A DNA stretch of 22,258 nt. Origin: a virus. The translations under genes and the position numbers were made by a program. Of this stretch, positions 960-22,258 are shown piece by piece. The stretch spans positions 1 to 22,258 of IMG/VR virus record IMGVR_UViG_3300024054_000062; one strand, written 5' to 3'. Within the stretch, counting starts at the first letter, position 1; each line of letters starts with the position of its first letter. The notes beneath the pieces are model-generated. The model did not search any database, was not told the DNA's origin, and was given only the letters and a program-made list of their open reading frames with translations.

Positions 960-967
960 TTAGTCTC

Positions 968-1618: not shown

Positions 1619-1633
1619 TTTTCATACCCTTTC

Positions 1634-1668
1634 AAAAAAGAATGTGTAGAAAACTTGTTCTACACATT
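1634..1668 (-). terminator. Rho-independent terminator or attenuator hairpin before scaffold and capsid genes
   Basis: Perfect 11-bp stem AATGTGTAGAA (1641-1651) with TTCTACACATT (1658-1668) around a 6-nt loop. On the minus strand the stem is followed by a CTTTTTT tract (1639 down to 1634). It lies after the stop of the 2030-residue gene and just 16 nt before the scaffold ATG, leaving no room for a promoter between hairpin and gene. I see no convincing promoter upstream of it, so partial read-through is possible. Confidence 0.8.
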
Positions 1669-1704
1669 CAGAATAACAGGTTTTGAGGGGGTGTTTTTAC
1701 GGGA

Positions 1705-8732: not shown

Positions 8733-8811
8733 TCACCTCGCCTAAAAGTTCCTGTACATAAAGTCGCGCTTCTAGAATATCAATCAACATCTGCTTCCTA
8801 GAATCCGACAT
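8602..8811 (-). CDS. Possible small overlapping ORF between portal and LysM genes
   Basis: A 69-codon frame whose ATG (8811) lies inside the last codons of the portal gene; its last 43 codons or so run out of frame through the LysM coding sequence. The unique first 26 residues (RKQMLIDILEARLYVQELLG) look like a genuine amphipathic helix, and the portal-LysM gap would otherwise be about 65 nt of unexplained sequence. The rest may be read only because the LysM gene lacks stops in that frame. It could be a short coupling peptide that keeps ribosomes moving to the LysM start. Low confidence. Confidence 0.3.
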   Translation of the reverse strand: MSDSRKQMLIDILEARLYVQELLGEVNDAGQTSNDRGYLGNHSEEIRGDGGTTEGVEPWRFHTVAGSGN

Positions 8812-12124: not shown

Positions 12125-12159
12125 AATTACAGTATAGGGTTATACAACCTACTGTTTTT
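12125..12159 (-). promoter_or_regulatory. Candidate leaderless promoter of terL
   Basis: Minus-strand -10 TATACT (12136-12131) lies 6 nt before the GTG start of terL. At the -35 distance (17-nt spacer) is AAAAAC (12159-12154), not a sigma-70 box but shared with the promoter candidate of the next gene upstream. There is no Shine-Dalgarno sequence between it and the start. Confidence 0.4.
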
Positions 12160-12337
12160 TATGCCAGCATCTTTTGATCTCCAACCACTCTAAATCAGCT
12201 AATCTTGCCCCGTGCATTCGGTTACAGTAACACCACGGACAGCTACCATGCGGACGACAGGTAAGATCGTATTTACCAGACCTCCAATAGGGTTTCCGAT
12301 GTTCCTTGCCATGAAGAATACCTTTGTCTAGGCTCAT
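12149..12337 (-). CDS. Small Cys-rich phage protein
   Basis: A 62-residue basic protein with CRPHGSCPWCYCNRMHG at residues 27-43. A C-x5-C-x2-C-x-C cluster with a following NR is a pattern I have seen in small hypothetical phage proteins and could bind zinc. It lies 24 nt upstream of terL on the same strand and probably belongs to the same late transcription unit. No ribosome site precedes the ATG at 12337; instead TATCAT ends 6 nt upstream. Function unknown; a small DNA-binding or packaging accessory role is possible but unproven. Confidence 0.65.
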   Translation of the reverse strand: MSLDKGILHGKEHRKPYWRSGKYDLTCRPHGSCPWCYCNRMHGARLADLEWLEIKRCWHKKQ

Positions 12338-12343
12338 ACATAC

Positions 12344-12372
12344 ATGATACAGAGATAAGTAGCTGCGTTTTA
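12344..12372 (-). promoter_or_regulatory. Candidate leaderless promoter of the leftward late operon
   Basis: Minus-strand TATCAT (12349-12344) is exactly 6 nt before the ATG at 12337, with TAAAAC at the -35 position after a 17-nt spacer (12372-12367). The geometry and the AAAAC box match those in front of terL. Confidence 0.4.
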
Positions 12373-12576
12373 CGCGAAAGAGGTGGGGAGATATTACTAG
12401 AACGTAACTTACCTGAATATCGGTAACTTGGAGGAAATTATTGGGTGAGAAATGCGCGCACTGTAAGCCAACGGTCTGCCAATAGGATCAACCAACGAGC
12501 CCCCACCCTACCGACCATCCGCTTGCTGACGCTGAAGAAACACGCCTGATCCGGCTCGATCTGGGGTATCGTCACC

Positions 12577-12703
12577 CATACCCGTACATATAGCCATGCC
12601 ATCGTGCATACCCGTACAGGTGGGGGGCTTGCTTTCGATAATGTCAATTATCGCAAGCATACGCATGATACCGGCCAGGATCGCATACCAGACGCAACAT
12701 ACC
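12577..12703 (+). repeat. Iteron-like CATACC repeats
   Basis: CATACCCGTACA occurs twice, 30 bp apart (12577-12588 and 12607-12618). Further CATACC copies are at 12684 and 12698, and a CATACG at 12658. Spacing between the two long copies is close to three helical turns, so one protein could bind both from the same face. Confidence 0.5.
12627..12658. other. Two-segment hairpin
   Basis: GCTTGC (12627-12632) pairs with GCAAGC (12653-12658). Inside it GATAAT (12637-12642) pairs with ATTATC (12647-12652) across a GTCA loop. It has no T tract, so it is not an obvious terminator; it could be an operator or part of an RNA. Confidence 0.5.
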
Positions 12704-12782
12704 CCCCGGGAGTATATGCGAGGGGGCTTGCAGTCTCTCACACCAGACATGACAAATGTCACATCATATATATGACATTAAT

Positions 12783-12799
12783 CACTGGTAACGCCAGTG
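12783..12799. promoter_or_regulatory. Dyad CACTGG-N5-CCAGTG upstream of the first accessory gene
   Basis: A perfect 6-bp inverted repeat with a 5-nt centre (TAACG), 38 nt before the ATG at 12837. Another dyad, TGACA-N2-TGTCA, lies at 12750-12761. Both could be operator sites for the 76-residue gene; I see no clear promoter boxes. Confidence 0.45.
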
Positions 12800-12836
12800 T
12801 ATCATGCTACACTATGTGTATATCACAGAAAGGATC

Positions 12837-13067
12837 ATGAAAATGAACAAGATTAATTATTTTGGCATGGTGTGTAATAGCGTGGACTATGGCGGAGTGC
12901 AGATTGTTCAGAACCCCCTAACCGGCTCCTGGATGTTGTTCTTCGATAATAAGTATCCCGACCAACTACCATATAGCGGGACGCTGACAGCGATGAAGGC
13001 GGTGGTCAATACGGCCGTGCGTAAGGGCGGCGAGGGGTATTTCATCAAGGCTGGAACGTACAAATAA
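12837..13067 (+). CDS. Small accessory protein, unknown (anti-defence candidate by context)
   Basis: A 76-residue protein. I chose the ATG at 12837 because AGAAAGG lies 4 nt or so before it; an ATG at 12804 in the same frame has no ribosome site, and a second ATG at 12843 is possible. The protein is neutral to slightly basic and compact, with aromatic residues (GSWMLFFDN near residue 30, GEGYFIKAGTYK at the end), and could fold as a small alpha/beta domain: beta strands at residues 7-35, a helix around residues 50-62, and a last strand. I recognise no family. It is read away from the structural operon and opens the accessory block carrying the solitary CRISPR repeat, so an anti-defence role is an inference from context only. 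Confidence 0.6.
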   Translation: MKMNKINYFGMVCNSVDYGGVQIVQNPLTGSWMLFFDNKYPDQLPYSGTLTAMKAVVNTAVRKGGEGYFIKAGTYK

Positions 13068-13121
13068 GTATTAACCACCCGCCCAGAGGATGACAGCCGG
13101 CCCGCTACCGGCGGCGGGTAT

Positions 13122-13157
13122 AGCAGGTGTGCTGCTAACCCTATCGCAGGGTATAAT
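13122..13157 (+). promoter_or_regulatory. Promoter with two abutting dyads before the acidic-protein gene
   Basis: TATAAT (13152-13157) is a full -10 box, about 24 nt before the ATG at 13182, with AGGAG as ribosome site. No good -35 is visible. Two 5-5-5 dyads sit just upstream: AGCAG-GTGTG-CTGCT (13122-13136) and ACCCT-ATCGC-AGGGT (13138-13152), the second running into the -10. A regulator bound there would block or help the promoter. Confidence 0.55.
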
Positions 13158-13181
13158 CTATCTAGTTCAGAGGAGATTATT

Positions 13182-13739
13182 ATGTCAGAATTAATCGTCG
13201 TCAACACCCGCCCGGAGCCGGATCCGTATTTTACCAACCAGGCAACCCAAACCGTCGTCTACGTTGTTCTGTCGAACGGTCAGTATGGCATCGTCCAAGA
13301 GGACGATGCCAACGCGATCACCAGGACACGCTGGCATCAGCATGAGCTAGCAGCCACCATCACCCGCCCGGATCAGACCGCCGCTGTCGCGTATATGCAG
13401 GGGGCTGCGGAGCTGGTCGACCGTATCATAGCTGGATCGTCCATCGACTATGACGGCCGTCACCTGGCGGGTAACCTGGACGACGACGCGCGCGCCGCCT
13501 GGGATCAGCTGGTAGATGAGCTCGGGCAGCTGCCGTCGTCCGACTGGACGCTCTGGCATGCCTCGGAGTGGATCGATCAGGCGCTCCCCAACGACGCCGA
13601 GCTAGCCGCTCTCACCGATGATCAGATATCGTCTATGGCCGCCGAGTACGCCGACTACGCCGAGTCAGAGCATGCCGTGATCGCTGGATCGATCCAGGAC
13701 GCCATCCTGGCCGCCAGAGACCTGGCCCGGGCCGAGTAG
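13182..13739 (+). CDS. Strongly acidic lysine-free protein, unknown (possible DNA mimic)
   Basis: A 185-residue protein with 32 Asp/Glu, no Lys and only 9 Arg by my count, so its net charge is very negative. The N-terminal 45 residues look beta-rich (TVVYVVLSNGQYGIVQED); the rest is helical with acidic clusters (NLDDDARAAWDQLVDELG, then ALTDDQISSMAAEYADYAESEH). Such composition is typical of DNA-mimic proteins that block nucleases or repressors, but also of proteins from high-GC donors, and codon use here is visibly richer in GC than in the structural genes. No family is recognised. It has a good ribosome site (AGGAG, 7-nt spacing) and its own TATAAT. It is followed by a GC hairpin and the lone CRISPR repeat, making it an anti-CRISPR or anti-restriction candidate by context. 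Confidence 0.7.
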   Translation: MSELIVVNTRPEPDPYFTNQATQTVVYVVLSNGQYGIVQEDDANAITRTRWHQHELAATITRPDQTAAVAYMQGAAELVDRIIAGSSIDYDGRHLAGNLDDDARAAWDQLVDELGQLPSSDWTLWHASEWIDQALPNDAELAALTDDQISSMAAEYADYAESEHAVIAGSIQDAILAARDLARAE

Positions 13740-13761
13740 ATCATCCAGTAGTTTTTCTACA

Positions 13762-13786
13762 TGCCGCGGGGTGATTGACCGCGGCA
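13762..13786. terminator. GC-rich hairpin between the acidic-protein gene and the CRISPR repeat
   Basis: A perfect 8-bp stem, TGCCGCGG (13762-13769) with CCGCGGCA (13779-13786), around a 9-nt loop. No T tract follows on either strand, so intrinsic termination would be weak. Read on the minus strand it lies 20 nt downstream of the repeat and could define the 3' end of, or stabilise, a short repeat RNA. Confidence 0.45.
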
Positions 13787-13806
13787 GCCCCATATGTAAT
13801 AAGAAG

Positions 13807-13839
13807 GTTTCAATCCACGCCCCCCATACGGGGAGCGAC
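13807..13839 (-). CRISPR. Solitary type I-C-like CRISPR repeat (candidate RNA anti-CRISPR)
   Basis: A single 33-nt element that on the minus strand has all parts of a type I-C repeat: 5' GTCGC, stem CGCTCCCC with GGGGGGCG closing a GTAT loop (one G-U wobble in RNA), then the 3' end GTGGATTGAAAC (13818 down to 13807), which would supply the 11-nt Cas5d-generated crRNA handle. There is no second full copy at the 65-70 nt period of an array and no cas gene in the window. Only minus-strand RNA has the correct orientation; plus-strand RNA would have a C-A mismatch in the stem. The neighbours are a GC hairpin 20 nt away on the handle side and a small HTH gene that starts 18 nt away. Lone repeats in phages are known to mimic crRNA and trap Cas proteins (Racr). 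Confidence 0.85.
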
Positions 13840-13840
13840 C

Positions 13841-13855
13841 AATAGGATATTAACC
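13841..13855. repeat. Motif AATAGGATRTTAACC, copy at the HTH gene start
   Basis: AATAGGATATTAACC ends 2 nt before the ATG of the HTH gene and contains its ribosome site (AGGA). It begins 1 nt after the CRISPR repeat. A near-identical copy lies at the end of the same gene (14069-14083) and a shorter form, AATAGGATCAACC, at 12481-12493. On the minus strand it reads TATCCT just before the repeat, which could serve as a -10. Confidence 0.5.
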
Positions 13856-13857
13856 AT

Positions 13858-14073
13858 ATGAACACTAGCGATGATACTATGGAGATCATGACCACGACCG
13901 AAGCCGTCCAGTATGCCCTAGACGCCGGGGTCAGGATAACATACACAGGGATTGTGGGCGCGGCCCAACATGGCCGGATACCCGGGGCCCGTAAATTTGG
14001 CCGGGACTGGGTCATCCCATTAGCCGGGATGATCTACTACCTGGAGCACCGGTCAACGCAAAGGCCCAAATAG
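13858..14073 (+). CDS. Small HTH DNA-binding protein (excisionase- or Aca-like)
   Basis: A 71-residue protein whose residues 11-66 resemble the MerR/excisionase-type helix-turn-helix: MTTTEAVQYALDAG, a turn, ITYTGIVGAAQHGRIPGARKFG as recognition region, then the wing-like RDWVIPLAGMIYYL. Two roles fit. It may be the recombination directionality factor for the integrase encoded 0.6 kb away on the other strand. Or, since it follows the lone CRISPR repeat at 18 nt and is itself bracketed by copies of a 15-bp motif (13841-13855 and 14069-14083), it may be an autoregulator of the accessory block, as Aca proteins are for anti-CRISPR genes. The ribosome site AGGA is 10 nt upstream of the ATG. Fold call moderately sure; role open. 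Confidence 0.7.
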   Translation: MNTSDDTMEIMTTTEAVQYALDAGVRITYTGIVGAAQHGRIPGARKFGRDWVIPLAGMIYYLEHRSTQRPK

Positions 14074-14083
14074 GATGTTAACC
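14069..14083. repeat. Motif AATAGGATRTTAACC, copy at the HTH gene end
   Basis: AATAGGATGTTAACC differs by one base from the copy at 13841-13855. It contains the TAG stop of the HTH gene (14071-14073) and touches the stop of the convergent gene at 14083. The HTH gene is thus flanked by direct copies 228 bp apart. Confidence 0.5.
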
Positions 14084-14658
14084 TAATCCTCGTCTATAAT
14101 CTGCCCGTCTATGATCTCCCGCCGATCACGCAGCATCGCGAGCATTTCTTTGGCAACGTCCGCAGATATGGATACCTGTACTCCGTCCGGCTGGTCTTTG
14201 TATCGTCTGTCCCGCAACAGGCCAGCCGCGCCGAAAATAAATTTTGCGGCCTCGATACTGTCCCGGTTTCCGCCATCCAGGGCGATCTGGATGATCCTGC
14301 CGGCAATCGAGTCCGCGCCGCCCTCCCAATTAACATGCTTGGTGTGTTTAGCCATCGCGCCGCGCACGATCTCTTGCGCCCGCTGCTGGAAGAAGTCGCC
14401 TTTTTTCTCCCCCTGGTTTTCTTTTGTGATCGCATAGGCTCCACCGCGCGGGGGACCCTTCAAAAATGCCCCCGTAACCGTATCCAGAATTGCCCCACTG
14501 GCCAAAACCCTCTGATGATCTGGTTCTTCGCAAGTGACTCGATGTATCTCTCCGGTGGCCGCCAGGCGGATGTCGCGTATAACCGGATGCCCATGAGTTC
14601 CAACCTCTATAACGCCGTCATTCTCTAGCGGTTCAATTTCCTTTTTTGTTTCGTCCAT
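14083..14658 (-). CDS. Unidentified phage protein, small-terminase-like C-terminal half
   Basis: I chose the ATG at 14658 (191 residues) because a perfect TATAAT (14670-14665) ends 6 nt before it, as for other leaderless starts here; an ATG at 14697 in frame would add 13 residues and has no ribosome site either. Residues 15-65 carry a beta-rich segment ending near GAILDTVTGAFLKGPPRGG. Residues 85-155 are helical with ADSIAGRIIQIALDGGNRDSIEAAKFIFGAAGLL; the end is charged (EMLAMLRDRREIIDGQIIDED). Repeated-helix segments of this kind occur in small terminase subunits, and no other TerS candidate is in the window, but the gene sits beside the integrase, over 2 kb from terL. The function is therefore left open. 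Confidence 0.6.
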   Translation of the reverse strand: MDETKKEIEPLENDGVIEVGTHGHPVIRDIRLAATGEIHRVTCEEPDHQRVLASGAILDTVTGAFLKGPPRGGAYAITKENQGEKKGDFFQQRAQEIVRGAMAKHTKHVNWEGGADSIAGRIIQIALDGGNRDSIEAAKFIFGAAGLLRDRRYKDQPDGVQVSISADVAKEMLAMLRDRREIIDGQIIDED

Positions 14659-14664
14659 GTTTAT

Positions 14665-14670
14665 ATTATA
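14665..14670 (-). promoter_or_regulatory. -10 box TATAAT before a leaderless start
   Basis: A full-consensus minus-strand TATAAT separated by ATAAAC from the ATG at 14658. No -35 box at 17 nt. Transcription would start at or next to the start codon. Confidence 0.45.
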
Positions 14671-14700
14671 CGGCCAATGAATGATATCGGTATTCATACT

Positions 14701-14715
14701 GTGTTACCGTAACAC
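14701..14715. promoter_or_regulatory. Perfect 15-bp palindrome GTGTTACCGTAACAC, probable operator
   Basis: Two 7-bp arms with one central base. It sits in the short gap between the integrase stop (14718) and the downstream gene, about 30 bp upstream of the TATAAT at 14670. The form is that of a dimeric HTH-protein operator. Confidence 0.6.
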
Positions 14716-14717
14716 AC

Positions 14718-15620
14718 CTATAAGTGATCCCCGGGGCTAAATCGAACGGATAGGCGCAGATCATCTTCCGTCTGTTTCAGATATCTACGGAGGACTTGCA
14801 GGTCTTTATGGCCCATTAACAATTGAAGCGTGAAAATATCCACCCCGGAGCGAAGGCAGTTTAATGCGTAGGATCGCCGGAATGCGTGGGGATACCAGAT
14901 GTGCGTTCCAGCCCTCTTGCAGATAGCAGCTAGAATGTGCTGTATGCTGCCATTTTTATAAGGCTCACCATAGCGATTACTAAATAATGATTGGCAGTTG
15001 TCGTTCCTGTGGAGCAGGTAGGCTCGCATCGCACGGCGTGCCTTCGCACCCAGCCATACTTTACGAGGTTCCCCGTTCTTCGTATCAGTCAGGACGATCT
15101 CCCCTGTGATCATGTTGTATTGTTTTCGCGTCAGTACAGACCATTCTCGCGCGCGGATACCGGTATCGTAGAGGAACAGCAATATAGCTTTTTCTTTCAC
15201 GCCGCAGACTTCCAGCATCCTGATAATATCTTCCGGCGGAACTGGTTCCAGCCGCTCCGGTTTCGGAGAGCAGAGTTTGACCTTATGTATTCCCGTCCTG
15301 GCGTCCGTTTCTAACTCGTACCACCGGAGGAAAGAGCGTATCGAACGATAAGCACCATGAACCCCCCCGGGATTGTGGGTGAGTTGCAGGTAGGCCAGAT
15401 AGTTCCGGACTACTTCCGCATTGATCTGGTTCATACTGTATATCTGACGATCTTCCAGCCAGCACGCCCAGGGCAACAGCTTTTTTGTATAGAAATCTAT
15501 TGTTGCCGGCGACCTTCCGGACACCTCTACGCAGCGCAGGTACATGTCCAGGAGATCCATAATCCCTTGTATTTGAATCTCATCAGATGTATAAGGTGTT
15601 TTACTCAAAATAACCCCCAT
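14718..15620 (-). CDS. int: Tyrosine-family site-specific integrase
   Basis: A 300-residue phage integrase that recombines attP with the host tRNA-Met. The N-terminal SAM-like core-binding domain spans residues about 18-105 (LDMYLRCVEVSGRSPATIDFYTKK, then YLAYLQLTHNPGGV). The catalytic domain follows: R156 in TGIRAREW, probable Lys in TDTKNGEPRK (K181), H245 and R248 in HAFRRSYALN, H271 in LLMGHKDL, and nucleophile Y280 in RRYLKQ. All key residues are present, so it should be active. The ATG at 15620 lies in one of two repeated ACCCCCATAT sites, suggesting that Int binding represses its own gene. attP is about 50 bp upstream. The start is not fixed by a ribosome site; TATAAC 8 nt upstream again suggests a very short leader. 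Confidence 0.95.
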   Translation of the reverse strand: MGVILSKTPYTSDEIQIQGIMDLLDMYLRCVEVSGRSPATIDFYTKKLLPWACWLEDRQIYSMNQINAEVVRNYLAYLQLTHNPGGVHGAYRSIRSFLRWYELETDARTGIHKVKLCSPKPERLEPVPPEDIIRMLEVCGVKEKAILLFLYDTGIRAREWSVLTRKQYNMITGEIVLTDTKNGEPRKVWLGAKARRAMRAYLLHRNDNCQSLFSNRYGEPYKNGSIQHILAAICKRAGTHIWYPHAFRRSYALNCLRSGVDIFTLQLLMGHKDLQVLRRYLKQTEDDLRLSVRFSPGDHL

Positions 15621-15661
15621 ATGTGCCGGTTATAGAGCACGTTACCCCCATATATAGCGGT
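15611..15661 (+). repeat. Probable integrase arm-type sites
   Basis: Two copies of an imperfect direct repeat, TAACCCCCATATGTGCCGGT (15611-15630) and TTACCCCCATATATAGCGGT (15642-15661), 31 bp apart (about three helical turns). They lie between the integrase start and the tRNA-derived core at 15671, where tyrosine integrases usually have arm sites. A possible related sequence, CACCTATATATAGGGC, is on the other side of the core at 15781-15796. Confidence 0.55.
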
Positions 15662-15670
15662 GTTTTTAGG

Positions 15671-15712
15671 TGGCGAGGGTGGGATTTGAACCCACAACCA
15701 ATGGCTTATGAG
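15671..15712 (-). other. attP core: 3' half of a tRNA-Met (CAT) gene
   Basis: On the minus strand 42 nt match the 3' part of a tRNA: anticodon loop CTCATAA with anticodon CAT (15710-15708), 3' anticodon strand GCCAT, variable loop, a perfect T arm (GTGGG, loop TTCAAAT, CCCAC), acceptor strand CCTCGCC and discriminator A. The identity starts at the anticodon loop: the bases before it do not pair with GCCAT, and no D arm or GGCGAGG acceptor strand exists upstream. This is how a phage attP restores a host tRNA on integration. Confidence 0.85.
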
Positions 15713-15820
15713 TCGTGTCCGCATTCCCAGCCGATTCTTTCCAGAATTACCAGTACATATACGATTATTCATTCTTTGAGCACCTATATATAGGGCTTTC
15801 CGGATATAAATAGTCCAATG

Positions 15821-15970
15821 CTATTTCAATACCAGGAACAAAACACCAACGAAGATCGCAATGATAGACAACCACCAGAAATCTGTCCCCAATGCAGCTA
15901 AACCGACCAGGATCAGTACTACTCCAGAGCCTTTACGCCGTGCCACTAGCAAATTCCGTAATGTACCCAT
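15821..15970 (-). CDS. Tiny two-helix membrane protein
   Basis: A 49-residue ORF with a textbook ribosome site (AAGGAGG, 5 nt before the ATG at 15970). A short basic N-terminus (MGTLRNLLVARRKGSG) is followed by two hydrophobic segments, residues 16-28 (GVVLILVGLAALG) and 33-48 (WLSIIAIFVGVLFLVL). Positive N-terminus and short turn suggest a hairpin in the inner membrane. It follows the repressor gene on the same strand at 114 nt, so it may be expressed in lysogens and act in superinfection exclusion; that role is inference from position only. Confidence 0.7.
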   Translation of the reverse strand: MGTLRNLLVARRKGSGVVLILVGLAALGTDFWWLSIIAIFVGVLFLVLK

Positions 15971-16009
15971 TGAATCCTCCTTCGGTATATCATGTTGTAT
16001 ATGACAGTA

Positions 16010-16052
16010 TTGCTTCAGAGAACGGATGTTCTATAATCATTGCACAGGGAGA
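16010..16052 (+). promoter_or_regulatory. Sigma-70-like promoter firing antisense into the repressor gene
   Basis: TTGCTT (16010-16015), 16-nt spacer, TATAAT (16032-16037), followed by AGGGAGA (16046-16052) 6 nt before an ATG at 16059. The frame behind it (66 codons) runs antisense through the 3' half of the repressor gene. Either a small ORF or, more likely, an antisense RNA would result. Confidence 0.45.
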
Positions 16053-16084
16053 TAACGAATGAACATTGAAGCGAGCGGGAATTG

Positions 16085-16444
16085 CTACGAACTGGATTTG
16101 ATCCCATACCTGGACAGCACCGATGAGATGATTGCCTTACCAGCTTCGCTGGTAGGGCTGATGTTATGGGCTTCACAGTCAGATAAAGCTTCCTGGATGG
16201 CCTGCCTGACAATCTCGGAGACAGACTCCGAAATATCACGGGTGAATAGCACTGAATGAACGCCGGGTAGTTTCTGCTCGATTGTCCGGATCGTTTCGAC
16301 AGAAGGCAACATATCCGGGTAGAGCATATATCTGTTTACAATAGTTTGTTTCAGGCCAAGCCAGTCTGCGAATTCAGATTTGCTCTTGGTGGTTTTCCCG
16401 CGCCACTTGATAAATTCACCATAAAGCCATTCTCCAAATTTCAT
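16085..16444 (-). CDS. XRE-family repressor (lysogeny regulator)
   Basis: A 119-residue protein with an N-terminal helix-turn-helix: residues 22-45, KSEFADWLGLKQTIVNRYML, with the turn at LGL and the recognition helix starting at KQTIVNRYM, followed by LPSVETIRTIEQKL as helix 4. The remaining 60 residues (ISESVSEIVRQAIQEAL onward) are helical and probably mediate dimer formation. There is no peptidase domain, so induction does not go through RecA-stimulated self-cleavage. The ribosome site is AGAAAGG about 5 nt before the ATG at 16444. It is divergent from the early operon, with a 130-bp operator region between them, the CI-type arrangement. A candidate own -10 is TACAAT (16479-16474). Confidence 0.85.
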   Translation of the reverse strand: MKFGEWLYGEFIKWRGKTTKSKSEFADWLGLKQTIVNRYMLYPDMLPSVETIRTIEQKLPGVHSVLFTRDISESVSEIVRQAIQEALSDCEAHNISPTSEAGKAIISSVLSRYGIKSSS

Positions 16445-16494
16445 TCTAACCTTTCTAATTCAAATGTATCACCATTGTACTAATTTTGCAATAG

Positions 16495-16535
16495 GTGCTA
16501 AAACACTTGACAAGTAGTTAGCACTTTGTTACTAT
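16495..16535 (+). promoter_or_regulatory. Genetic switch: early promoter overlapped by nested operator dyads
   Basis: Plus-strand TTGACA (16507-16512), 17-nt spacer and TACTAT (16530-16535) form a near-consensus promoter for the early operon. Perfect 7-bp inverted arms GTGCTAA (16495-16501) and TTAGCAC (16518-16524) straddle the -35, and inside them is ACTTG-A-CAAGT (16505-16515) centred on it. Another AGTGCTA half-site lies at 16564-16570. Repressor binding would block the rightward -35 directly. Confidence 0.75.
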
Positions 16536-16574
16536 ATACCCATAAATAGCTACTTGGAAAGGAAGTGCTACTGG

Positions 16575-16772
16575 ATGGAACGTATTGCACACGGAACCAC
16601 AAGGAAGGCCGTACTGGTTTACATCACTGAACACCCAGGCTGCTCGTTAGACGAGATTGCCGGCGCGGTCGGAGTAACAAAAACGCCAGTCAAATACCAT
16701 GTTCAAACACTGATCAGCGAAGGGAAGCTTTCCTTCACCCCGGGCCGCCACCGCTCCCTACGGGCTATATGA
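16575..16772 (+). CDS. Winged-helix transcription regulator, first early gene
   Basis: A 65-residue protein starting at ATG 16575 (ribosome site GGAAAGGAAG 9 nt upstream; a TTG at 16556 is the ribosome-site region itself). Residues 12-62 are a winged helix: VLVYITEHPGCSLDEIAGAVGVTKTPVKYHVQTLISEGKLSF, with helices 2 and 3 in LDEIAGAV and KTPVKYHVQTL and the wing near FTPGRH, as in LexA/MarR/ArsR-type domains. It is essentially only the DNA-binding domain. As the first gene after the switch promoter it may be the Cro-like or early activator protein. The next gene overlaps its stop by ATGA. Confidence 0.75.
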   Translation: MERIAHGTTRKAVLVYITEHPGCSLDEIAGAVGVTKTPVKYHVQTLISEGKLSFTPGRHRSLRAI

Positions 16773-16945
16773 CCTGCCAGCACGAAAGTTTAGACATTGA
16801 GGAGGAGGTGATCGAAGAAGGACCGATCGCGTTTATCGCCGGTGAGGTGATCTATCGCAGAGAAACGCATCTTTACTATCGCTGTTCTTTCTGCGGTCAA
16901 CGAGTGGAAGGTGAAGTACCACTCGACTATTCAGAAGAGGAATAA
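16769..16945 (+). CDS. Small acidic Zn-ribbon-like protein
   Basis: A 58-residue protein with an N-terminal MTCQHE and a later YRCSFCGQRV: C3, H5, C41 and C44 could make a CxH...CxxC zinc site holding the chain as a small ribbon. The middle and the end are acidic (IEEEVIEEGP, then DYSEEE). Its ATG overlaps the stop of the regulator gene (ATGA), and its TAA is followed at once by the ATG of the Sak4-like gene, so the three are translated as one unit. No family recognised. Confidence 0.7.
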   Translation: MTCQHESLDIEEEVIEEGPIAFIAGEVIYRRETHLYYRCSFCGQRVEGEVPLDYSEEE

Positions 16946-17911
16946 ATGGAATTTATCAAGGCAACCAAACGAAAAAGCAAGTTACGTTTAGCTATTGACG
17001 GTCCGTCAGGATCAGGAAAGACCTACACCGCCCTGACCGCCGCCAAGACACTCGGCGGCAAGATCGCCGTGATCGACACCGAGCGGGGATCGGCCTCTTT
17101 GTATTCCGACAAGTTTAACTTCGATGTGTTGGAGTTGCACACTTTCTCACCCGCTTTGTACATTGACGCTATCGAAACCGCGGAGAAAGCCGGTTATGAC
17201 GTAATCGTCATAGACTCGCTCTCACATGCCTGGGAAGGTGAAGGTGGGGCGTTGGATATGGTAGACCAAGCCGCCAAGCGCAGTCAGTCCAACAACACCT
17301 ACACTGCCTGGAAGGATGTTACTCCATTGCAGCGCAAGCTGGTGGATGCCATGCTCCAAAGCCCCGCGCACATTATAGCCACAATGCGCTCAAAAACCGA
17401 GTACATCCTCGAAACCAACGACAAGGGCCGCCAAGTTCCAAAGAAAATTGGCATGGCGCCCATCCAGCGTCAGGGCATGGAATACGAGTTTACGCTCGTC
17501 TGCGATATGGATTTAGACCATAACTGCATCGTGTCAAAATCGCGTTGCGAAGCCGTTGCCGATAAGGTAGTCAATAAGCCGGACGCAAAGTTTTTTGACA
17601 TCCTGGTTAACTGGCTTAACTCCGGTGAAGAAGTTAAACAGTCCGAGAAAACAAAACCTGTTGAGGTGAAGCCGGTCGAACAAACTCCACTGGACGCGCT
17701 GGTTTCTGCAATGCCATCCATGACTACCGAGGAAGCCCGCGCAATGGTTGGCAGCGATGGTCGAACGTACGGCGAGTGCGACAAAGAAGAGTTAAAAAAC
17801 AAGGTTCTTGGTATCAACAAGGCCATGAAAAACCCAGCCAACACGCCGGAAAAGAATGACGAGTATCTGCGAAAATTGCAGGCCGCCAACATCTGCATTA
17901 CTAACCTCTAA
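16946..17911 (+). CDS. Sak4-like RecA-fold ATPase (phage recombination)
   Basis: A 321-residue P-loop protein with Walker A GPSGSGKT at residues 19-26, DTERG at 44-48, Walker B DVIVIDS at 85-91, and a RecA-core-like stretch with HIIATMRSKTEY and PIQRQGMEYEF. This is the pattern of the phage Sak4/AAA_24 group, which works with single-strand binding protein in homologous annealing and recombination of phage DNA. The C-terminal 90 residues are a Lys/Glu/Pro linker with a small helical domain (MTTEEARAMVGSDGRTYGE) seen in some relatives. It is the third gene of the early operon, before replication genes. No separate SSB gene was found in the window, which is odd for a Sak4 system. Confidence 0.8.
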   Translation: MEFIKATKRKSKLRLAIDGPSGSGKTYTALTAAKTLGGKIAVIDTERGSASLYSDKFNFDVLELHTFSPALYIDAIETAEKAGYDVIVIDSLSHAWEGEGGALDMVDQAAKRSQSNNTYTAWKDVTPLQRKLVDAMLQSPAHIIATMRSKTEYILETNDKGRQVPKKIGMAPIQRQGMEYEFTLVCDMDLDHNCIVSKSRCEAVADKVVNKPDAKFFDILVNWLNSGEEVKQSEKTKPVEVKPVEQTPLDALVSAMPSMTTEEARAMVGSDGRTYGECDKEELKNKVLGINKAMKNPANTPEKNDEYLRKLQAANICITNL

Positions 17912-17953
17912 ACATCACCCTGGCGGCCGGGGCAAAGACCGCCGGAGGTTCTT

Positions 17954-18097
17954 ATGTACACAGTTATGTTTATCAGCATGTGTCTGGCTTTCATCCTAGA
18001 CCGACTTACTAATTTCCATGATTTTGCGCTAATCGTATTCTGCTTGATCCTGTTCATTCTGGCAGTAAAACATGGCGCCTTTGATTTTGGAGATTGA
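17954..18097 (+). CDS. Tiny membrane protein
   Basis: A 47-residue ORF with GGAGGT 5 nt before its ATG. Residues 1-15 (YTVMFISMCLAFIL) and 24-39 (FALIVFCLILFILAVK) are hydrophobic, giving one or two membrane helices around the polar turn DRLTNFHD. It is followed by the next gene with one base between. A GC hairpin (GGCGG at 17931-17935 with CCGCC around 17939-17943) precedes its ribosome site. Function unknown. Confidence 0.6.
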   Translation: MYTVMFISMCLAFILDRLTNFHDFALIVFCLILFILAVKHGAFDFGD

Positions 18098-18098
18098 T

Positions 18099-18308
18099 AT
18101 GACCGGTCAGCAATTTGTGGATAACAGGGTTGTGATGATCAAGCTCATCCCTCCGTACGATGTTCCGGAAGGTTGCGCTGTCTATTATACCGACAGCGTG
18201 GAATATGCCTTAAGGCTGTTTAGTATGTCGCACGCCCAAAGACCAAAGCTGGTTTGGCAGGATTTCACCAATCATAGGATTTATATCCCAGAGGTTGCGG
18301 ATGATTGA
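18099..18308 (+). CDS. Unknown 69-residue early protein
   Basis: The start at ATG 18099 is preferred: GGAG lies 6 nt upstream inside the end of the previous gene, while the in-frame ATG at 18072 lies inside that gene without a ribosome site. The protein alternates strands and a helix (RVVMIKLIPPYD, then VEYALRLFSMS, then HRIYIPEV), a small alpha/beta domain without visible catalytic residues. It overlaps the next gene by 8 nt, so translation is coupled to the nuclease gene; it could be a partner of it, but nothing in its sequence shows this. Confidence 0.6.
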   Translation: MTGQQFVDNRVVMIKLIPPYDVPEGCAVYYTDSVEYALRLFSMSHAQRPKLVWQDFTNHRIYIPEVADD

Positions 18309-18852
18309 CATCCCGCTAACCCGGAATTTCAGGGACTGGTGTCATGAGTACGCGCTTGGGAATATGGTGAAATCGGTGACCAGGGAACCGGGGACGCTGG
18401 AGATGCAGCTATCAGGTGTGATTGGCCAGAACGCGGTGCTGTGGATGCTGGGAATGCCGCTGATGAAGCACCAGCAGGGTTATGACGGCGGGTACGACCT
18501 GGTACTGGACGGCGTGCGGGTGGACGTTAAGACACAGACCAGAAAGGTCACCGTAAAAGAGGTCATGGTGGCCAATTTCGTGGACGACCAGCGGCGATTG
18601 AACGCGCAGGCATACATCTTCACTTCGTATAACTGGGTGAAGCAGATCGTGACGGTGTGCGGCTGGGCGCCGAAGAACTGGCTATTTGAGCGGGCCGAGT
18701 TCCACAAGAAGGGTGATCTGCGTTACCGGAGCGATGGCACGAGTTTTTTTAACCGCTACAACAACTGGGAGATGCCGTTATCAAAGCTCTTCCCATGCTA
18801 CTCGGCGTTCGACCTGCGGGACAGTATCAGAAACAAAATGGTGAGCCTGTGA
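18301..18852 (+). CDS. PD-(D/E)XK superfamily nuclease
   Basis: A 183-residue protein from ATG 18301, chosen because CCAGAGG (18288-18294) is 6 nt upstream; a TTG at 18295 is too close to it. Residues 38-90 carry the fold's core: GVIGQNAVLWMLG as first helix, then GGYDLVLDGVRVDVKT, where an Asp in GYD and the DVK triad (D and K ten residues on) match the D-x(n)-(D/E)xK signature. The end includes an aromatic region (FFNRYNNWEMP). It may be a resolvase or a replication-associated nuclease. It lies between recombination and initiation genes. The stop overlaps the next GTG start. Confidence 0.7.
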   Translation: MIDIPLTRNFRDWCHEYALGNMVKSVTREPGTLEMQLSGVIGQNAVLWMLGMPLMKHQQGYDGGYDLVLDGVRVDVKTQTRKVTVKEVMVANFVDDQRRLNAQAYIFTSYNWVKQIVTVCGWAPKNWLFERAEFHKKGDLRYRSDGTSFFNRYNNWEMPLSKLFPCYSAFDLRDSIRNKMVSL

Positions 18853-19646
18853 AAAAAACATGGATCAAGATCAAAAGAGGCCTTCTTGAGCCGAAGCACA
18901 TCGAGCAACTTGGCCAGGCCTGGTATCTGTACTTATACATTCTGGATCAGGCCGATTGGGATAACGGTCAAATAAAAGAATGGAAAGACGAATACGCGGC
19001 TTCTGATCTGAATAAACCGGTCAGACTAATTCAGGAACATCGCAAGCATTTGGCCAGCGAAGGCTATATCACCTGCGCGAAACGACAGCACAACCAAGTG
19101 ATTATTGTCCATAATTGGACAAACCCGCGTAACTATGATGGCGTTGTGATGAATGAAAATGACCAGAGTTCAGAAAATTCTGAATTCAGAAATAACGTAA
19201 CTCTGGATGAGAGTACAGGTCAGAGTACAGGTCAGAGTACAGGTCAGAGTACAGGTCAGACTTTTTTTTCTCCCTCTATTAATTCACACTCTTCATCTAA
19301 CCACATAACCACAATACCACATAGCCACAGTAGCCACAGTGCAGCCGGGAACACCGAAAGTGTCTTCTCGGTTTACGAGAACAACATCGGACTTCTGACA
19401 CCGCTCATCGCAGATGAGATCAAGTCAGCCGAGAAAGATTACGGGCCGCAATGGGTGGCGGATGCCATTGCCGAGGCCGTCAAAGCAAACGTCCGCCGCT
19501 GGAAATATATCCGGGCGATTTTAGAACGCTGGGCCGTGGAAGGCCGGGGCGATAAGCCAAAGAAGAATAAACACGAGGATACAAACATGGCGATTTTCGG
19601 CCTGACGCCTGACGAGGAAGGAGAGATTTATGGCAAGCCTGGCTGA
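18849..19646 (+). CDS. DnaD-like replication initiator
   Basis: A 265-residue protein from GTG 18849, overlapping the previous stop (GTGA); an in-frame ATG at 18795 would lie inside the nuclease gene and has no ribosome site. Residues 5-95 look like the N-terminal winged-helix part (LYLYILDQADWDNGQIK, VRLIQEHRKHLASEGYI). Residues 122-137 are four exact STGQ repeats, followed by a Ser/His-rich linker. Residues 174-230 are a DnaD/DnaB_2-type domain (VYENNIGLLTPLIADEI, then YGPQWVADAIAEAV and WKYIRAILERW). These proteins load helicase at the origin. The linker DNA contains a dyad and 12-bp iteron-like repeats, a likely origin. Confidence 0.85.
   Translation: MKKTWIKIKRGLLEPKHIEQLGQAWYLYLYILDQADWDNGQIKEWKDEYAASDLNKPVRLIQEHRKHLASEGYITCAKRQHNQVIIVHNWTNPRNYDGVVMNENDQSSENSEFRNNVTLDESTGQSTGQSTGQSTGQTFFSPSINSHSSSNHITTIPHSHSSHSAAGNTESVFSVYENNIGLLTPLIADEIKSAEKDYGPQWVADAIAEAVKANVRRWKYIRAILERWAVEGRGDKPKKNKHEDTNMAIFGLTPDEEGEIYGKPG
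19163..19206. other. Compound dyad at the candidate replication origin
   Basis: CCAGAGTT (19163-19170) is mirrored by AACTCTGG (19199-19206). Between them are TTCAGAA (19169-19175), TTCTGAA (19178-19184) and TTCAGAA (19185-19191), the last two forming a 14-bp palindrome. The whole could extrude as a cruciform. It stands only 4 nt before the tandem repeats. Confidence 0.6.
19211..19258 (+). repeat. Four tandem 12-bp repeats, candidate origin iterons
   Basis: GAGTACAGGTCA is repeated four times without a single change. In frame it encodes STGQ x4. It is followed by a T tract (19262-19269) and a low-complexity Py/A-rich stretch with CCACA repeats (19301-19340). Repeats in the initiator gene next to an easily melted tract resemble the lambda origin inside gene O. 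Confidence 0.65.
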
Positions 19647-20169
19647 AGTCAAAGTCATCATGGGAACGATGTCCATCGCCTACCCGAACTACGTGGCGAA
19701 GCAGGGCGCGCCGGAGATTTACCACATGATCCTTTCAGACTTGCCGAAGGACGCGCTGGAAGCGGGAGCCAAAGCATATCTTGCCACTTCCAACGCCTTC
19801 TTCCCTTCACCGGGGCAGTGGCGGCAAGCTGCGCTGGATATTGTTCTCTCAAATGCTGCTCCGTCTGCGCTGGAAGCCTGGGGGGAAGTTTTGAATCAGA
19901 TCGAAAGCGTTGGGTATTACCGTGAGCCGGAGTTTAGCTCCCCGCTGATCGAGAAGATCGTGAACCAGTTTGGTTGGCAGAATCTATGCTCCTCTGAAAA
20001 TCAAGTAGCAGACCGGGCCAGATTCTTACAAGCTTACGAAGCTGCCTTACAGACCGCGAGTAGTGATGCGCGTATGCTGCCAGGCGTGAAAACCGTAGCT
20101 GAAAAATACCGGCTGGAACGAGTTGACGAGAGTATCAAAAAGCTAACGGAGGGAATTGTCCATGACTGA
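19630..20169 (+). CDS. Putative helicase loader (SPP1 G39P-like)
   Basis: A 179-residue protein without a P-loop. Residues 5-75 have the pattern of the G39P N-terminal domain of helicase loader/inhibitors: VIMGTMSIAYPNY, IYHMILSDLPKDALEAGAKAYLATSNAFFPSPGQWRQ, i.e. helices with a conserved YP and the FFPSPGQ turn. Residues 85-179 are helical with NQFGWQNLCSS and a basic-acidic tail. Such proteins carry the replicative helicase to the initiator. The position right after the DnaD-like gene matches the SPP1 order initiator-loader. It starts at ATG 19630 (ribosome site GGAGAG) and overlaps the initiator gene by 17 nt. No helicase gene is in the window, so the host's DnaB is a likely partner. Confidence 0.65.
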   Translation: MASLAEVKVIMGTMSIAYPNYVAKQGAPEIYHMILSDLPKDALEAGAKAYLATSNAFFPSPGQWRQAALDIVLSNAAPSALEAWGEVLNQIESVGYYREPEFSSPLIEKIVNQFGWQNLCSSENQVADRARFLQAYEAALQTASSDARMLPGVKTVAEKYRLERVDESIKKLTEGIVHD

Positions 20170-20305
20170 ATCAGAAGTATACGAAGTTTATATCAGGAGT
20201 TTTGATTTTGTGACCAGGCTGCTGATGATCGCCAAGAATTATAAAAGCACAGACGAGATCACAGCCGAAGATATTAATTTCATCAACAAGGCGGTTGGGC
20301 TATGA
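20162..20305 (+). CDS. Small unknown protein
   Basis: A 47-residue ORF beginning within the end of the loader gene (8-nt overlap) with GGAGGG about 9 nt upstream. Sequence: acidic N-terminus MTESEVYEVY, helix FDFVTRLLMIAKNY, then DEITAEDINFINKAV; probably two or three short helices. Its TGA overlaps the next ATG (ATGA). Function not recognised. Tight coupling on both sides supports it as a real gene. Confidence 0.6.
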   Translation: MTESEVYEVYIRSFDFVTRLLMIAKNYKSTDEITAEDINFINKAVGL

Positions 20306-20670
20306 AAATCATTCAGCTTTGTTTCCTGGATAATATCCGCGCCTGTGACGATTGCGGCGAAATGTTTCTTTCCCCAGACAGGCATCGCAAGTTCTGCGCT
20401 TCTTGCCGGAGTTTGCACCACTTTGCCGCGCGAATGAAATACAAGAAAGCTTTTGTCCCTCACTATGTGCCCAAACCGAGTCACAACACCTGCAACGAAT
20501 TGTACCGCGAGGCAAAGTACATTGTTCTGGAAGACCCCAATGGACTTTATCAAGGCAGTAAATTTTCTTTGAGATCCATCAAAGATATGGTCGCAGACGG
20601 CTATTTTTATACAGCCATCATCCAGCATGAAAAGACGCACAGGGTATGCCTGGCGGGCGAGTTAGCATGA
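20302..20670 (+). CDS. Zn-finger-containing phage protein
   Basis: A 122-residue protein with CDDCGEMF at residues 15-22 and CASCRSLH at residues 32-39, a CxxC...CxxC zinc site of treble-clef or ribbon type with an intervening basic SPDRHRKF; this unit is common in small phage DNA-binding proteins. Residues 65-122 are an alpha/beta part (LYREAKYIVLEDPNG, then FSLRSIKDMVADGYFY). It overlaps both neighbours by ATGA junctions. It could assist in regulation or DNA handling; specific function unknown. Confidence 0.65.
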   Translation: MKIIQLCFLDNIRACDDCGEMFLSPDRHRKFCASCRSLHHFAARMKYKKAFVPHYVPKPSHNTCNELYREAKYIVLEDPNGLYQGSKFSLRSIKDMVADGYFYTAIIQHEKTHRVCLAGELA

Positions 20671-20837
20671 CAGAAGACTTCTTAATTTGGCTTATTGAAT
20701 TGATCACCATTCTAGTCGTTGGCGCAATCATGTACAAAGCCGGTGAACTCGCCAGGTACCGCGCCGGCAGCCAAGATACTCTGGAAGAGATGATCGAACG
20801 GATGATTTCGAAGATCAAATCCGATCATACGAGGTAA
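20667..20837 (+). CDS. Small single-span membrane protein
   Basis: A 56-residue protein. ATG 20667 overlaps the previous stop (ATGA); an upstream in-frame ATG at 20646 is inside the previous gene. Residues 6-25 (IWLIELITILVVGAIMY) form one membrane helix, and the rest is a charged cytoplasmic helix (DTLEEMIERMISKIKSD). Function unknown; the form resembles small phage inhibitors or spanin-like pieces, but without a lysis gene nearby this cannot be said. Confidence 0.6.
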   Translation: MTEDFLIWLIELITILVVGAIMYKAGELARYRAGSQDTLEEMIERMISKIKSDHTR

Positions 20838-20839
20838 GA

Positions 20840-21430
20840 ATGAAAAAATATGAGCTTACTGACGAGGTAAACGAATATGGATTGCGCCGCATCAAATATC
20901 TGATTGATTTGCCCGGAATAAATGCTGGCGAATTAGGCGGATGGATTGAAAGCGAAAAAAATTTATCGCAGGATGGCAATGCGCAGGTATTCGGCAATGC
21001 GTGGGTGTACGGCGATGCGCGGGTGTACGGCGATGCGCGGGTGTACGGTGATGCGTGGGTGTACGGCAATGCGCAGGTATTCGGCAATGCGTGGGTGTAC
21101 GGCGATGCGCGGGTATTCGGCAATGCGCAGGTATTCGGCAATGCGTGGGTGTACGGCGATGCGTGGGTGTACGGCGATGCGCGGGTGTACGGTGATGCGT
21201 GGGTATCAAAAAAAACCGATTACCTGACAGTTAGCCCTATTGGCTCTCGCAATAGTACTACCACCTTCTTCCGAGAGGAAAAAGGCATTGCCGTAGTCTG
21301 TGGATGTTTCTATGGCTCATTGGATGATTTTACCAAGCGGGTCATAGAAACTCACGGCGATAACCGCCATGCAAAAATGTATCTAGCGGCAATAGAACTG
21401 GCTAAATTGCAGATGGAGACAGACAAATGA
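20840..21430 (+). CDS. Hexapeptide-repeat beta-helix protein
   Basis: A 196-residue protein. Residues 1-45 form an N-terminal cap (MKKYELTDEVNEYGLRRI, then AGELGGWIESEKNLS), residues 46-123 are 13 hexapeptide units of the form G(N/D)A(Q/W/R)V(F/Y), and residues 124-196 are a C-terminal domain (IAVVCGCFYGSLDDFTKRV, then HAKMYLAAIELAK). The hexapeptide is that of a left-handed beta-helix. N-terminal and C-terminal parts with this central region are found in phage and bacterial proteins of unclear role. The ribosome site is GAGGT 5 nt before ATG. The repeat DNA varies almost only at amino-acid-changing positions (see findings). It overlaps the next gene by ATGA. Confidence 0.75.
   Translation: MKKYELTDEVNEYGLRRIKYLIDLPGINAGELGGWIESEKNLSQDGNAQVFGNAWVYGDARVYGDARVYGDAWVYGNAQVFGNAWVYGDARVFGNAQVFGNAWVYGDAWVYGDARVYGDAWVSKKTDYLTVSPIGSRNSTTTFFREEKGIAVVCGCFYGSLDDFTKRVIETHGDNRHAKMYLAAIELAKLQMETDK
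20975..21208 (+). repeat. Thirteen tandem 18-bp repeats
   Basis: In-frame units GGC RAT GCG NNG GTR TWC, where the second codon is AAT/GAT and the fourth CAG/TGG/CGG; the last two are GTA TTC or GTG TAC. GGC and GCG never change. The order of units is NQF NWY DRY DRY DWY NQF NWY DRF NQF NWY DWY DRY DWS, which includes longer-period repetition of the block NQF-NWY. Confidence 0.9.
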
Positions 21431-21594
21431 ACAAAAACGAATTGCCAGATACTCCTGAAAGAACACCCAACCCGGGAAGCGATGAGGCCGTCAAATTAGG
21501 TTGCACCTGCCCTGTTGAGGACAACAAACACGGGGATGGTGTACCCTCATCCATAGCCGGAGTTGCGCAAGTACAGCGAGTATCCGACCATTGA
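21427..21594 (+). CDS. Small CxC phage protein, C-terminus apparently replaced
   Basis: A 55-residue ORF starting with ATGA overlap to the beta-helix gene. Residues 14-37 contain PNPGSDEAVKLGCTCPVEDN followed by KHGDG, a highly characteristic segment of a family of small phage proteins, which normally continue to a second Cys motif (CPLH type). Here the sequence after HGDG (VPSSIAGVAQVQRVSDH) is unlike the family and runs out of frame over the beginning of an exonuclease fragment. This looks like a deletion junction near 21535-21562, so the protein may be non-functional. Confidence 0.6.
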   Translation: MNKNELPDTPERTPNPGSDEAVKLGCTCPVEDNKHGDGVPSSIAGVAQVQRVSDH

Positions 21595-21823
21595 TCTGAT
21601 GGGCATCTTGTACGGCTGGGGGCCGGCGAAAGGTCTGAAATTTGTCTGCAAACGGTACGGCATAGAGAACCCACTACCGGAACTGAACGGCTCTCTGGTG
21701 GATGGAATGGAGCCAGAGACGCTGCGGGCGTACTGCGGCAACGATGTGGAGCTCACACTTCGCCTGTACCAAAAGATGTGTGGCGTGTATTTGCAGGATT
21801 TCCAGACCGACACCTCCGAATAG
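21563..21823 (+). pseudogene. 3' fragment of a DnaQ-like (PolB-type) 3'-5' exonuclease gene
   Basis: The frame to the TAG at 21823 gives about 86 residues (from a TTG at 21563) with YPTIDLMGILYGWGPAKGL, then GIENPLPELNGSLVDGM and ETLRAYCGNDVELTLRLYQK. The last segment is an ExoIII-type motif (YxxxD) of RNase H-like proofreading exonucleases. The first half with the DxE ExoI motif is missing, and the fragment has no proper start: TTG 21563 lies inside the preceding ORF without a ribosome site. I take it as the remnant of a gene cut by the deletion that also truncated the CxC protein. A fused or programmed-frameshift product is possible but less likely. Confidence 0.6.
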
Positions 21824-21860
21824 AGCAAACTTATCACAGTATGATGAATATGAGGAAATT

Positions 21861-22258
21861 ATGATCACTCAACTAACAAAAGAACAGACAGATAAGTTTC
21901 CTGCCTATTTAAAAGAATGGACTGGCTACGGGTTATTCACCGAACCAGCGAATAGACCGCTGGCTGAAGAAGGAATCCGCGAGATGTATGCTGTAGTGGG
22001 TTTGAAAGAGCCAAAAATTATTTGGACAACCAGCCCGATGGCAAACGCGTTGATTTACGCAATGGTAAAAGATAAGGCTTCCGTCAGGGCTTCCGTCAGG
22101 GATTCCGTCGGGGCTTCCGTCTGGGCTTCCGTCGGGGATTCCGTCGGGGATTCCGTCATGGCTTCCGTCTGGGATTCCGTCGGGGATTCCGTCTGGGATT
22201 CCGTCAGAGCTTCCGTCAGGGCTTCCGTCAGGGATTCCGTCAGGGCTTCCGTCAGGGC
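21861..22258 (+). CDS. Protein with DUF6745-like start and SV tetrapeptide repeats (incomplete)
   Basis: Open from ATG 21861 (ribosome site GAGGAA, 5 nt) to the window end, 132 codons. Residues 4-70 read LTKEQTDKFPAYLKEWTGYG, then GLFTEPANRPLAEEGI, MYAVVGLKEPKIIWTTSPMA; this resembles the N-terminal part of DUF6745-type proteins of unknown function (from memory). From residue 73 the chain is made of (A/D)SV(R/G/W/M) tetrapeptides, at least 15 units, a form likely to make a solenoid or coiled structure. The gene continues past the window. It follows the beta-helix protein, a second repeat protein built by the same kind of repeat expansion. Confidence 0.6.
   Translation, partial: MITQLTKEQTDKFPAYLKEWTGYGLFTEPANRPLAEEGIREMYAVVGLKEPKIIWTTSPMANALIYAMVKDKASVRASVRDSVGASVWASVGDSVGDSVMASVWDSVGDSVWDSVRASVRASVRDSVRASVR
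22077..22258 (+). repeat. Tandem 12-bp repeats encoding (A/D)SV(R/G/W/M)
   Basis: Fifteen complete units GMT TCC GTC NGG plus the start of another. TCC and GTC are never changed. Differences fall at position 2 (C/A: Ala or Asp) and position 10 (A/G/T: Arg, Gly or Trp), plus one ATG (Met) and one silent AGA. The array reaches the window end. Confidence 0.9.

Follow-up and report, generated by a model that had tools for sequence, protein, structure and literature searches.

A probable coding minisatellite of 12 bp units with two mixed codons in phage proteins of the DUF6745 family

The tetrapeptide array described here is best read as a coding minisatellite; in the phage protein that contains it, it separates an N-terminal domain from DUF6745, and it is real, widespread in viral contigs and unusual. 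Its units appear to be copied from one another while two codons in each unit are kept mixed, a pattern that is well supported. We propose that this process is perhaps PRDM9-like and that the array serves as a changing interaction surface, a function that we infer; the account as a whole seems to us evenly poised between right and wrong, and the role as a surface is its weaker part. If true, phages would offer a counterpart to PRDM9-style evolution, in which units are copied and two codons are near-maximally mixed. The carriers of the array are many viral contigs and some bacterial replicons, in which the gene goes by names like hypothetical protein or DUF6745.

The window and the complete array gene

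The window, 22258 bases long, covers virus record G000 from end to end and contains phage genes: among the Pfam matches to ten of its proteins are terminase, integrase, AAA_24 ATPase, DnaB_2-type replication protein and LysM. The features that concern us are as follows.

20840..21430, + strand: hexapeptide-repeat (YdcK-type) gene (PF18836, E 4.8e-21), a neighbour outside the array module
21861..22258, + strand: 5' part of the array gene, with ATG at 21861; the open frame leaves the contig at its right end
21861..22076, + strand: N-terminal domain of 72 aa, predicted by AlphaFold2 to be mostly helical with one strand
22077..22258, + strand: 12 bp (tetrapeptide) array of 15 whole units plus 2 bases, then the contig end
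L002:5001-6218: P0001, the complete array gene product of 406 aa, with N-terminal domain, 32 xxSV units and DUF6745

TCCGTC is exact in all 15 whole units from 22077, in agreement with an earlier note on this DNA that had counted at least 15 such units. The preceding codon is GCT in eight units and GAT in seven, and the codon that follows is AGG in six, GGG in four, TGG in three and ATG and AGA in one each. The switching between Ala and Asp and between Arg, Gly and Trp that the note described is present at both codons, with one Met (ATG) that it left out, and the single silent change that it mentioned is the AGA, found once among the 15 units. TRF reported the array at 22076-22258 with a period of 12, 15.2 copies, 88% matches, 0% indels and a score of 254. 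A further 12 bp in-frame repeat (STGQ; 4.2 copies, 100% matches) lies at 19210-19260, in the DnaB_2-type replication gene.

The earlier note had suggested obtaining the rest of the gene, and L002, part of a 37120 bp viral contig found by the search for relatives, supplies it in full as P0001, which is 100% identical over the window query. The L002 contig matches window positions 1-12000 with a bit score equal to that of the window's self-match, differs by a single base in 12001-20974 (at 16543) and by a single base in 21211-22258 (at 22244); the latter is inside the array and 14 bases from the contig end, where the assembly may be at fault. Otherwise the two differ by 54 bp (3 x 18) in the hexapeptide array next door, as the 18 bp array of the YdcK-type gene (20975-21204) has 13 units in the window and 16 in L002. 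Residues 203-405 of P0001 match Pfam DUF6745 (PF20530) with an E value of 4.7e-62 and 209.4 bits against a cut-off of 27; the truncated window protein has no DUF6745 match in Pfam, the domain lying beyond the contig end. Pfam gives no function for PF20530, and a literature search on DUF6745 found no paper. The note's 'undescribed' thus does not hold for the gene, which in full matches a Pfam family, but does for the array: among the literature matches listed for phage tetrapeptide repeats, hypervariable phage tandem repeats and unit strings, we found no description of it. Chance-level matches only, such as GreA/GreB, were returned for the truncated protein by Pfam, PHROGs and NCBIfam.

The hexapeptide gene had been taken to be diversified by the same repeat process as the array gene. 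It does differ between the window and L002, but the pairing is incidental: by a fixed motif, such a gene accompanies only two of the 137 array stretches surveyed below in the DNA examined, which rules out a beta-helix gene as a constant neighbour of the array. The units of the YdcK-type array likewise vary at a few codons (CAG/CGG/TGG). A stretch of ~100 bp in the window (21456-21554) matches L002:7369-7468, downstream of the array gene, at 98%.

Variable and shared positions of the unit

Arrays were collected by a pattern scan of viral contigs in which the third codon bases were free (at least 120 stretches) and from the search for relatives that gave L002. The 254 deduplicated chains were reduced to 172 with mostly Ser at position 3, then to 162 by A/D and W/R/G content and finally to 137 with at least eight units; these are stretches and not genes, as some genes (L049) contribute two. 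They have 8-59 units, with a median of 18 in the 82 stretches for which both ends of the frame are closed, and 37 of the 137 reach the end of the sequence examined. Variation is beyond chance, each of the two codon positions varying in 135 of the 137.

Every unit had to contain Val, which by design leaves bases 10 and 11 without variation; in the loci that it brought, the scan pattern fixed or limited bases 2, 4, 5, 7 and 8, and the restriction to A and C at position 5 is partly built into it. The argument therefore rests on bases 3, 6, 9 and 12, which the search left free. Over the 137 stretches, the entropy within an array has a median of 1.50 bits at base 1, where the W/R/G codon starts, and of 0.98 bits at base 5, the middle of the A/D codon; for each of the remaining ten bases, the free ones among them, the median is 0. 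Base 1 has a higher entropy than bases 6, 9 and 12 in 133, 133 and 132 stretches, respectively, and a lower one in 2, 3 and 4; for base 5 the corresponding counts are 130, 130 and 129 against 3, 5 and 5. Bases 6, 9 and 12 are invariant in 82 of the 137 stretches.

Within the arrays, GGG makes up 92.5% of 785 Gly codons, AGG and CGG together 97.4% of 883 Arg codons and GCY 97% of 1269 Ala codons, compared with 22.7%, 34.2% and 54.2%, respectively, elsewhere in the same frames. The third bases would be shared because the units copy one another: Trp forces TGG and Asp forces GAY, and the other residues inherit the base. The surveyed arrays have 27 silent-codon signatures, and as the silent codons are unlike between phages, each array appears to be homogenised separately. 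Among pairs of DUF6745 genes with SV arrays, the signature is shared by 23 of 403 at 20-30% identity of the C-terminal domain and by 11 of 51 at 60-70%, which indicates that signatures turn over. Silent sites are alike inside an array and unlike between arrays, as in a coding minisatellite.

Turnover between close relatives

The earlier note expected in-frame gain and loss of 12 bp units, and close relatives do differ by whole units. L155 and L166, whose flanks agree at every base over 400 + 400 bp, have arrays of 25 and 24 units with two changes; L024 and L026 have the first 27 and last three units in common and differ by four units. The arrays are reorganised with the same silent codons in L052 and L066 (downstream flank 93.5% identical) and in L149 and L188 (flanks 88-90%). 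The variation in length and sequence among close relatives is thus found in these other pairs; over the part compared, the window array differs from that of L002 by one base.

The most clear-cut case is an array gene annotated as 'hypothetical protein' in the Mycobacterium abscessus prophage record MW584211 (prophiGD102-1); its C-terminal domain is 100% identical in three further viral records, which are probably also from M. abscessus. L334 and L368, whose flanks do not differ over 2000 + 2000 bp, have 46 and 19 units; L370, identical over the downstream 2000 bp, has yet another array, cut at its start, with 20 units present, and in L369 (flank identities of 93.7% and 98.4%) there are 62. Across the four arrays of the MW584211 type all of the 147 units keep CAGCTC, and variation is limited to W/R/G and D/G, save three Glu codons in first units. 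Alleles thus differ between near-identical genomes, as those of a coding minisatellite do, with the proviso that part of the length differences may be assembly collapse, since the accessible text of PMC8092301 describes paired Illumina sequencing with reads of 300 bases, supplemented for some samples by Nanopore. Since nature supplies alleles that share their flanks but not their arrays, the role of the array is open to a direct test.

Array sequence lies at or near both contig ends in L014/L082, L018/L071, L030/L064, L057/L145 and L105/L153; contigs flanked in this way look as if they were circular genomes broken there. As the array tends to break metagenome assemblies, it is probably under-counted.

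Other cores, members without an array and a second protein family

A motif search of the frame before 94 distinct DUF6745 C-terminal domains gave SV cores in 65, QV in six, QL in two, KV (a run of five units), SSL and AV in one each and none in 18. Truncation or degeneration of the array accounts for some of these 18 (L076, L108, L346 and L365); clear array-less DUF6745 genes include those of L326 (an actinobacterial genome), L338 (a Streptomyces plasmid), L337 (a Nostoc plasmid), L353, L356, L361 and L364. The array gene belongs with the DUF6745 family by its full-gene match and differs from some phage, Streptomyces and Nostoc plasmid members, which are array-less. The first codon of the QV, QL, KV and SSL arrays is mainly NGG for W/R/G, with Glu also in L333 and L335. 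At the second codon most have D together with A or G; L351 is more mixed there, and L333 has an invariant Ser. The SSL array varies at the first codon only. Among bacterial genomes sampled from two phyla, DUF6745 is rare, with 3 of 149 and 5 of 199 positive. In L328, from an actinobacterial genome, a DUF6745 gene has the array (H/G/D)(G/D)AV, with the first two codons variable, and the array-less Streptomyces gene of L338 is near two STM4015 family genes.

The SV array is also present in a second, unrelated protein family, B (34 of 105 N-termini); three family B proteins scanned had no Pfam match. The frame of L073 (contig 3300009285_000194) starts as family B, passes through the array into the YGQHE of family A (the DUF6745 proteins) and runs to the contig end, which is either domain swapping through the common array or an assembly mis-join.

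A scan of bacterial genome contigs (at least 120 stretches), which serves as a contrast and not as a count, was dominated by near-uniform GASV/GACV/GATV repeats, by their titles mostly from gut Clostridia; by eye, the W/R/G by A/D type was seen only in L210, L231, L276, L286 and L319 among the matches listed. The near-uniform 12 bp repeats of the bacterial contigs in L201-L320 are without the two-codon mixture, and their reading frame is putative.

Structure predictions and family searches

AlphaFold2 models of P0001, made with 18 relatives, have block means of 75-96 for residues 1-70, mostly 84-94 for DUF6745 and 26-46 for the array; for family B (L061, with 21 relatives) the array was modelled as helices with two breaks and block means of ~58-84 past the first residues. 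The confidence of the array helix is thus low for P0001 and moderate for family B. As an in-frame repeat with a few variable codons the array resembles the YdcK-type hexapeptide beta-solenoid (PF18836), but the latter has a six-residue unit and a known profile, whereas the tetrapeptide array of the window protein matched no solenoid family in Pfam. Foldseek found no match to the P0001 model in the PDB at an E value of 0.001 or better, and the best Z score for the family B model in a VIA comparison was 4.6, which is not meaningful by the tool's own note. The best match of P0001 in a PDB search by sequence aligned its array with a stretch of gametocyte surface protein P230 (E 0.0048), which we judged to be chance. 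PHROGs gave weak matches to families of unknown function, phrog_31813 for P0001 (E 6.5e-6, within the DUF6745 part) and phrog_18326 for one family B protein (E 4.1e-5, mostly in the array). PADLOC gave weak matches only.

Copying, composition and order

In the explanation that we favour, unequal recombination or template slippage between units would keep the units alike and selection would keep the W/R/G and A/D codons diverse. The array would consist of successive helical segments whose W/R/G and A/D side chains may make up an interaction surface that changes against a varying target in the host or in a rival phage; these last steps are the weaker ones. The phage array has no zinc finger, is part of a phage protein and has a 12 bp unit, where the PRDM9 unit is 84 bp, and it is not known to have a ligand. 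What the array has in common with the PRDM9 zinc-finger minisatellite, going by the accessible text of PMC3890296, is tandem coding units, fast turnover of alleles and variation centred on a few codons.

The main rival is that composition matters and order does not. The array would then be a low-complexity polyampholyte with Trp/Arg stickers and Gly/Ala/Ser/Asp spacers that acts in self-association or solubility, and uniform repeats would aggregate or lose the property; we consider this possible but doubtful. Overall, W:R:G is 0.33:0.35:0.32 (109 arrays) and A:D is 0.50:0.50 (110 arrays), and such even proportions suit a composition rule as well as they suit our explanation. The order of units is near random, with small excesses, for example of W before D (458 against 406 expected); a weak alternation of the A/D codon is the sole lag signal (z of -2.1, 3.6, -0.4 and 3.2 at lags 1-4). 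A near-random order in which alternation, strongest at lag 2, is the only structure fits the composition rule and speaks against a specific recognition code. A like mix in family B and in the QL/QV arrays and the low confidence of the P0001 array model point the same way. However, per-array composition is over-dispersed (chi2/df of 2.07 and 2.39) and so only loosely constrained, the model of the family B array shows helix with moderate confidence, and the fixed V or L at every fourth residue suggests packing.

A minisatellite that is neutral or selfish, acting as a spacer of drifting length in which slippage adds and removes units and the residues at the two codons are irrelevant, would account for the variable number of units (8 to 59), for the existence of array-less members and for the block duplications, which are significant in 21 of the 93 arrays with at least 15 units. 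We nevertheless find it very unlikely. A neutral simulation of block duplication and loss, small in scale (20 units, five mutation rates, two runs each), gave a three-allele site and a silent site like entropy and so predicts like entropy everywhere, whereas the observed entropy is close to zero at the free silent sites and close to its maximum at the two codons; moreover, the same residue choice returns on different cores. What these sequence comparisons leave is copying combined with selection that would keep the two codons mixed.

Targeted mutagenesis of the two codons is highly improbable, although variation at two positions per unit recalls the diversity-generating retroelements, in which variation is likewise confined to set positions of a phage protein. 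The bases at the variable codon are not random: among the 131 arrays with Arg, 95 have AGG only, 31 CGG only and five both, and the use of one Arg codon in 126 of them argues against base randomisation, from which a mixture of A and C would be expected. A search of 30 records, which may be incomplete, gave no reverse transcriptase (PF00078), and 3 of 14 control genomes were positive. Least credible of all is an assembly or sequencing artefact, for which one could cite the window stopping inside the array and the 37 stretches that reach a sequence end, since SV arrays occur in at least 123 loci (some on one contig) and two protein families, and SSL and QL arrays occur in the complete records MW202476 and MW584211.

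A small gene beside DUF6745

Neighbour clustering brought out a partner gene of ~104 aa in 52 of 81 family A loci; the largest cluster for family B covers 4 of 42. Its motif, read by eye, is RQGDVLI ... GHxHxI ... HxEHxxIxLPxGxYxVxxQREY. A partner profile, built from seven of the loci later searched, located the gene at 55 of the 59 distinct DUF6745 genes with enough flank, on the same strand in 55 of 55 and at less than 2 kb in 54; it is upstream of the DUF6745 gene in 25 and downstream in 30. It accompanies DUF6745 genes with an array (45 of 47) and without one (10 of 12). In L347 it is fused to DUF6745, and in L002 it is directly downstream of the array gene, in a frame from about 6247 that is past the window's end. 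The family of unknown function phrog_27831, matched by 15 of 87 neighbour proteins, is probably the RQGD partner family. Five partner members had no Pfam match over the cut-off, and the best PDB match by sequence had an E value of 0.67.

In the favoured explanation the array protein may work with this adjacent gene, which again is a weaker step. A bolder version, which we think unlikely, takes the six unit types (W/R/G by A/D) as a portable, self-shuffling peptide code on a locked core, placed in two unrelated proteins and, with at least five cores, in the DUF6745 slot; the near-random string of each lineage would serve as a changing recognition surface or would mark the lineage, and a factor of the host or of a rival would read it together with the RQGD partner.

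The conserved His and Glu residues of the partner might bind a metal. Relatives of the partner at 35-37% identity were found by tblastn in ten phage records, eight of them of Microcystis phages.
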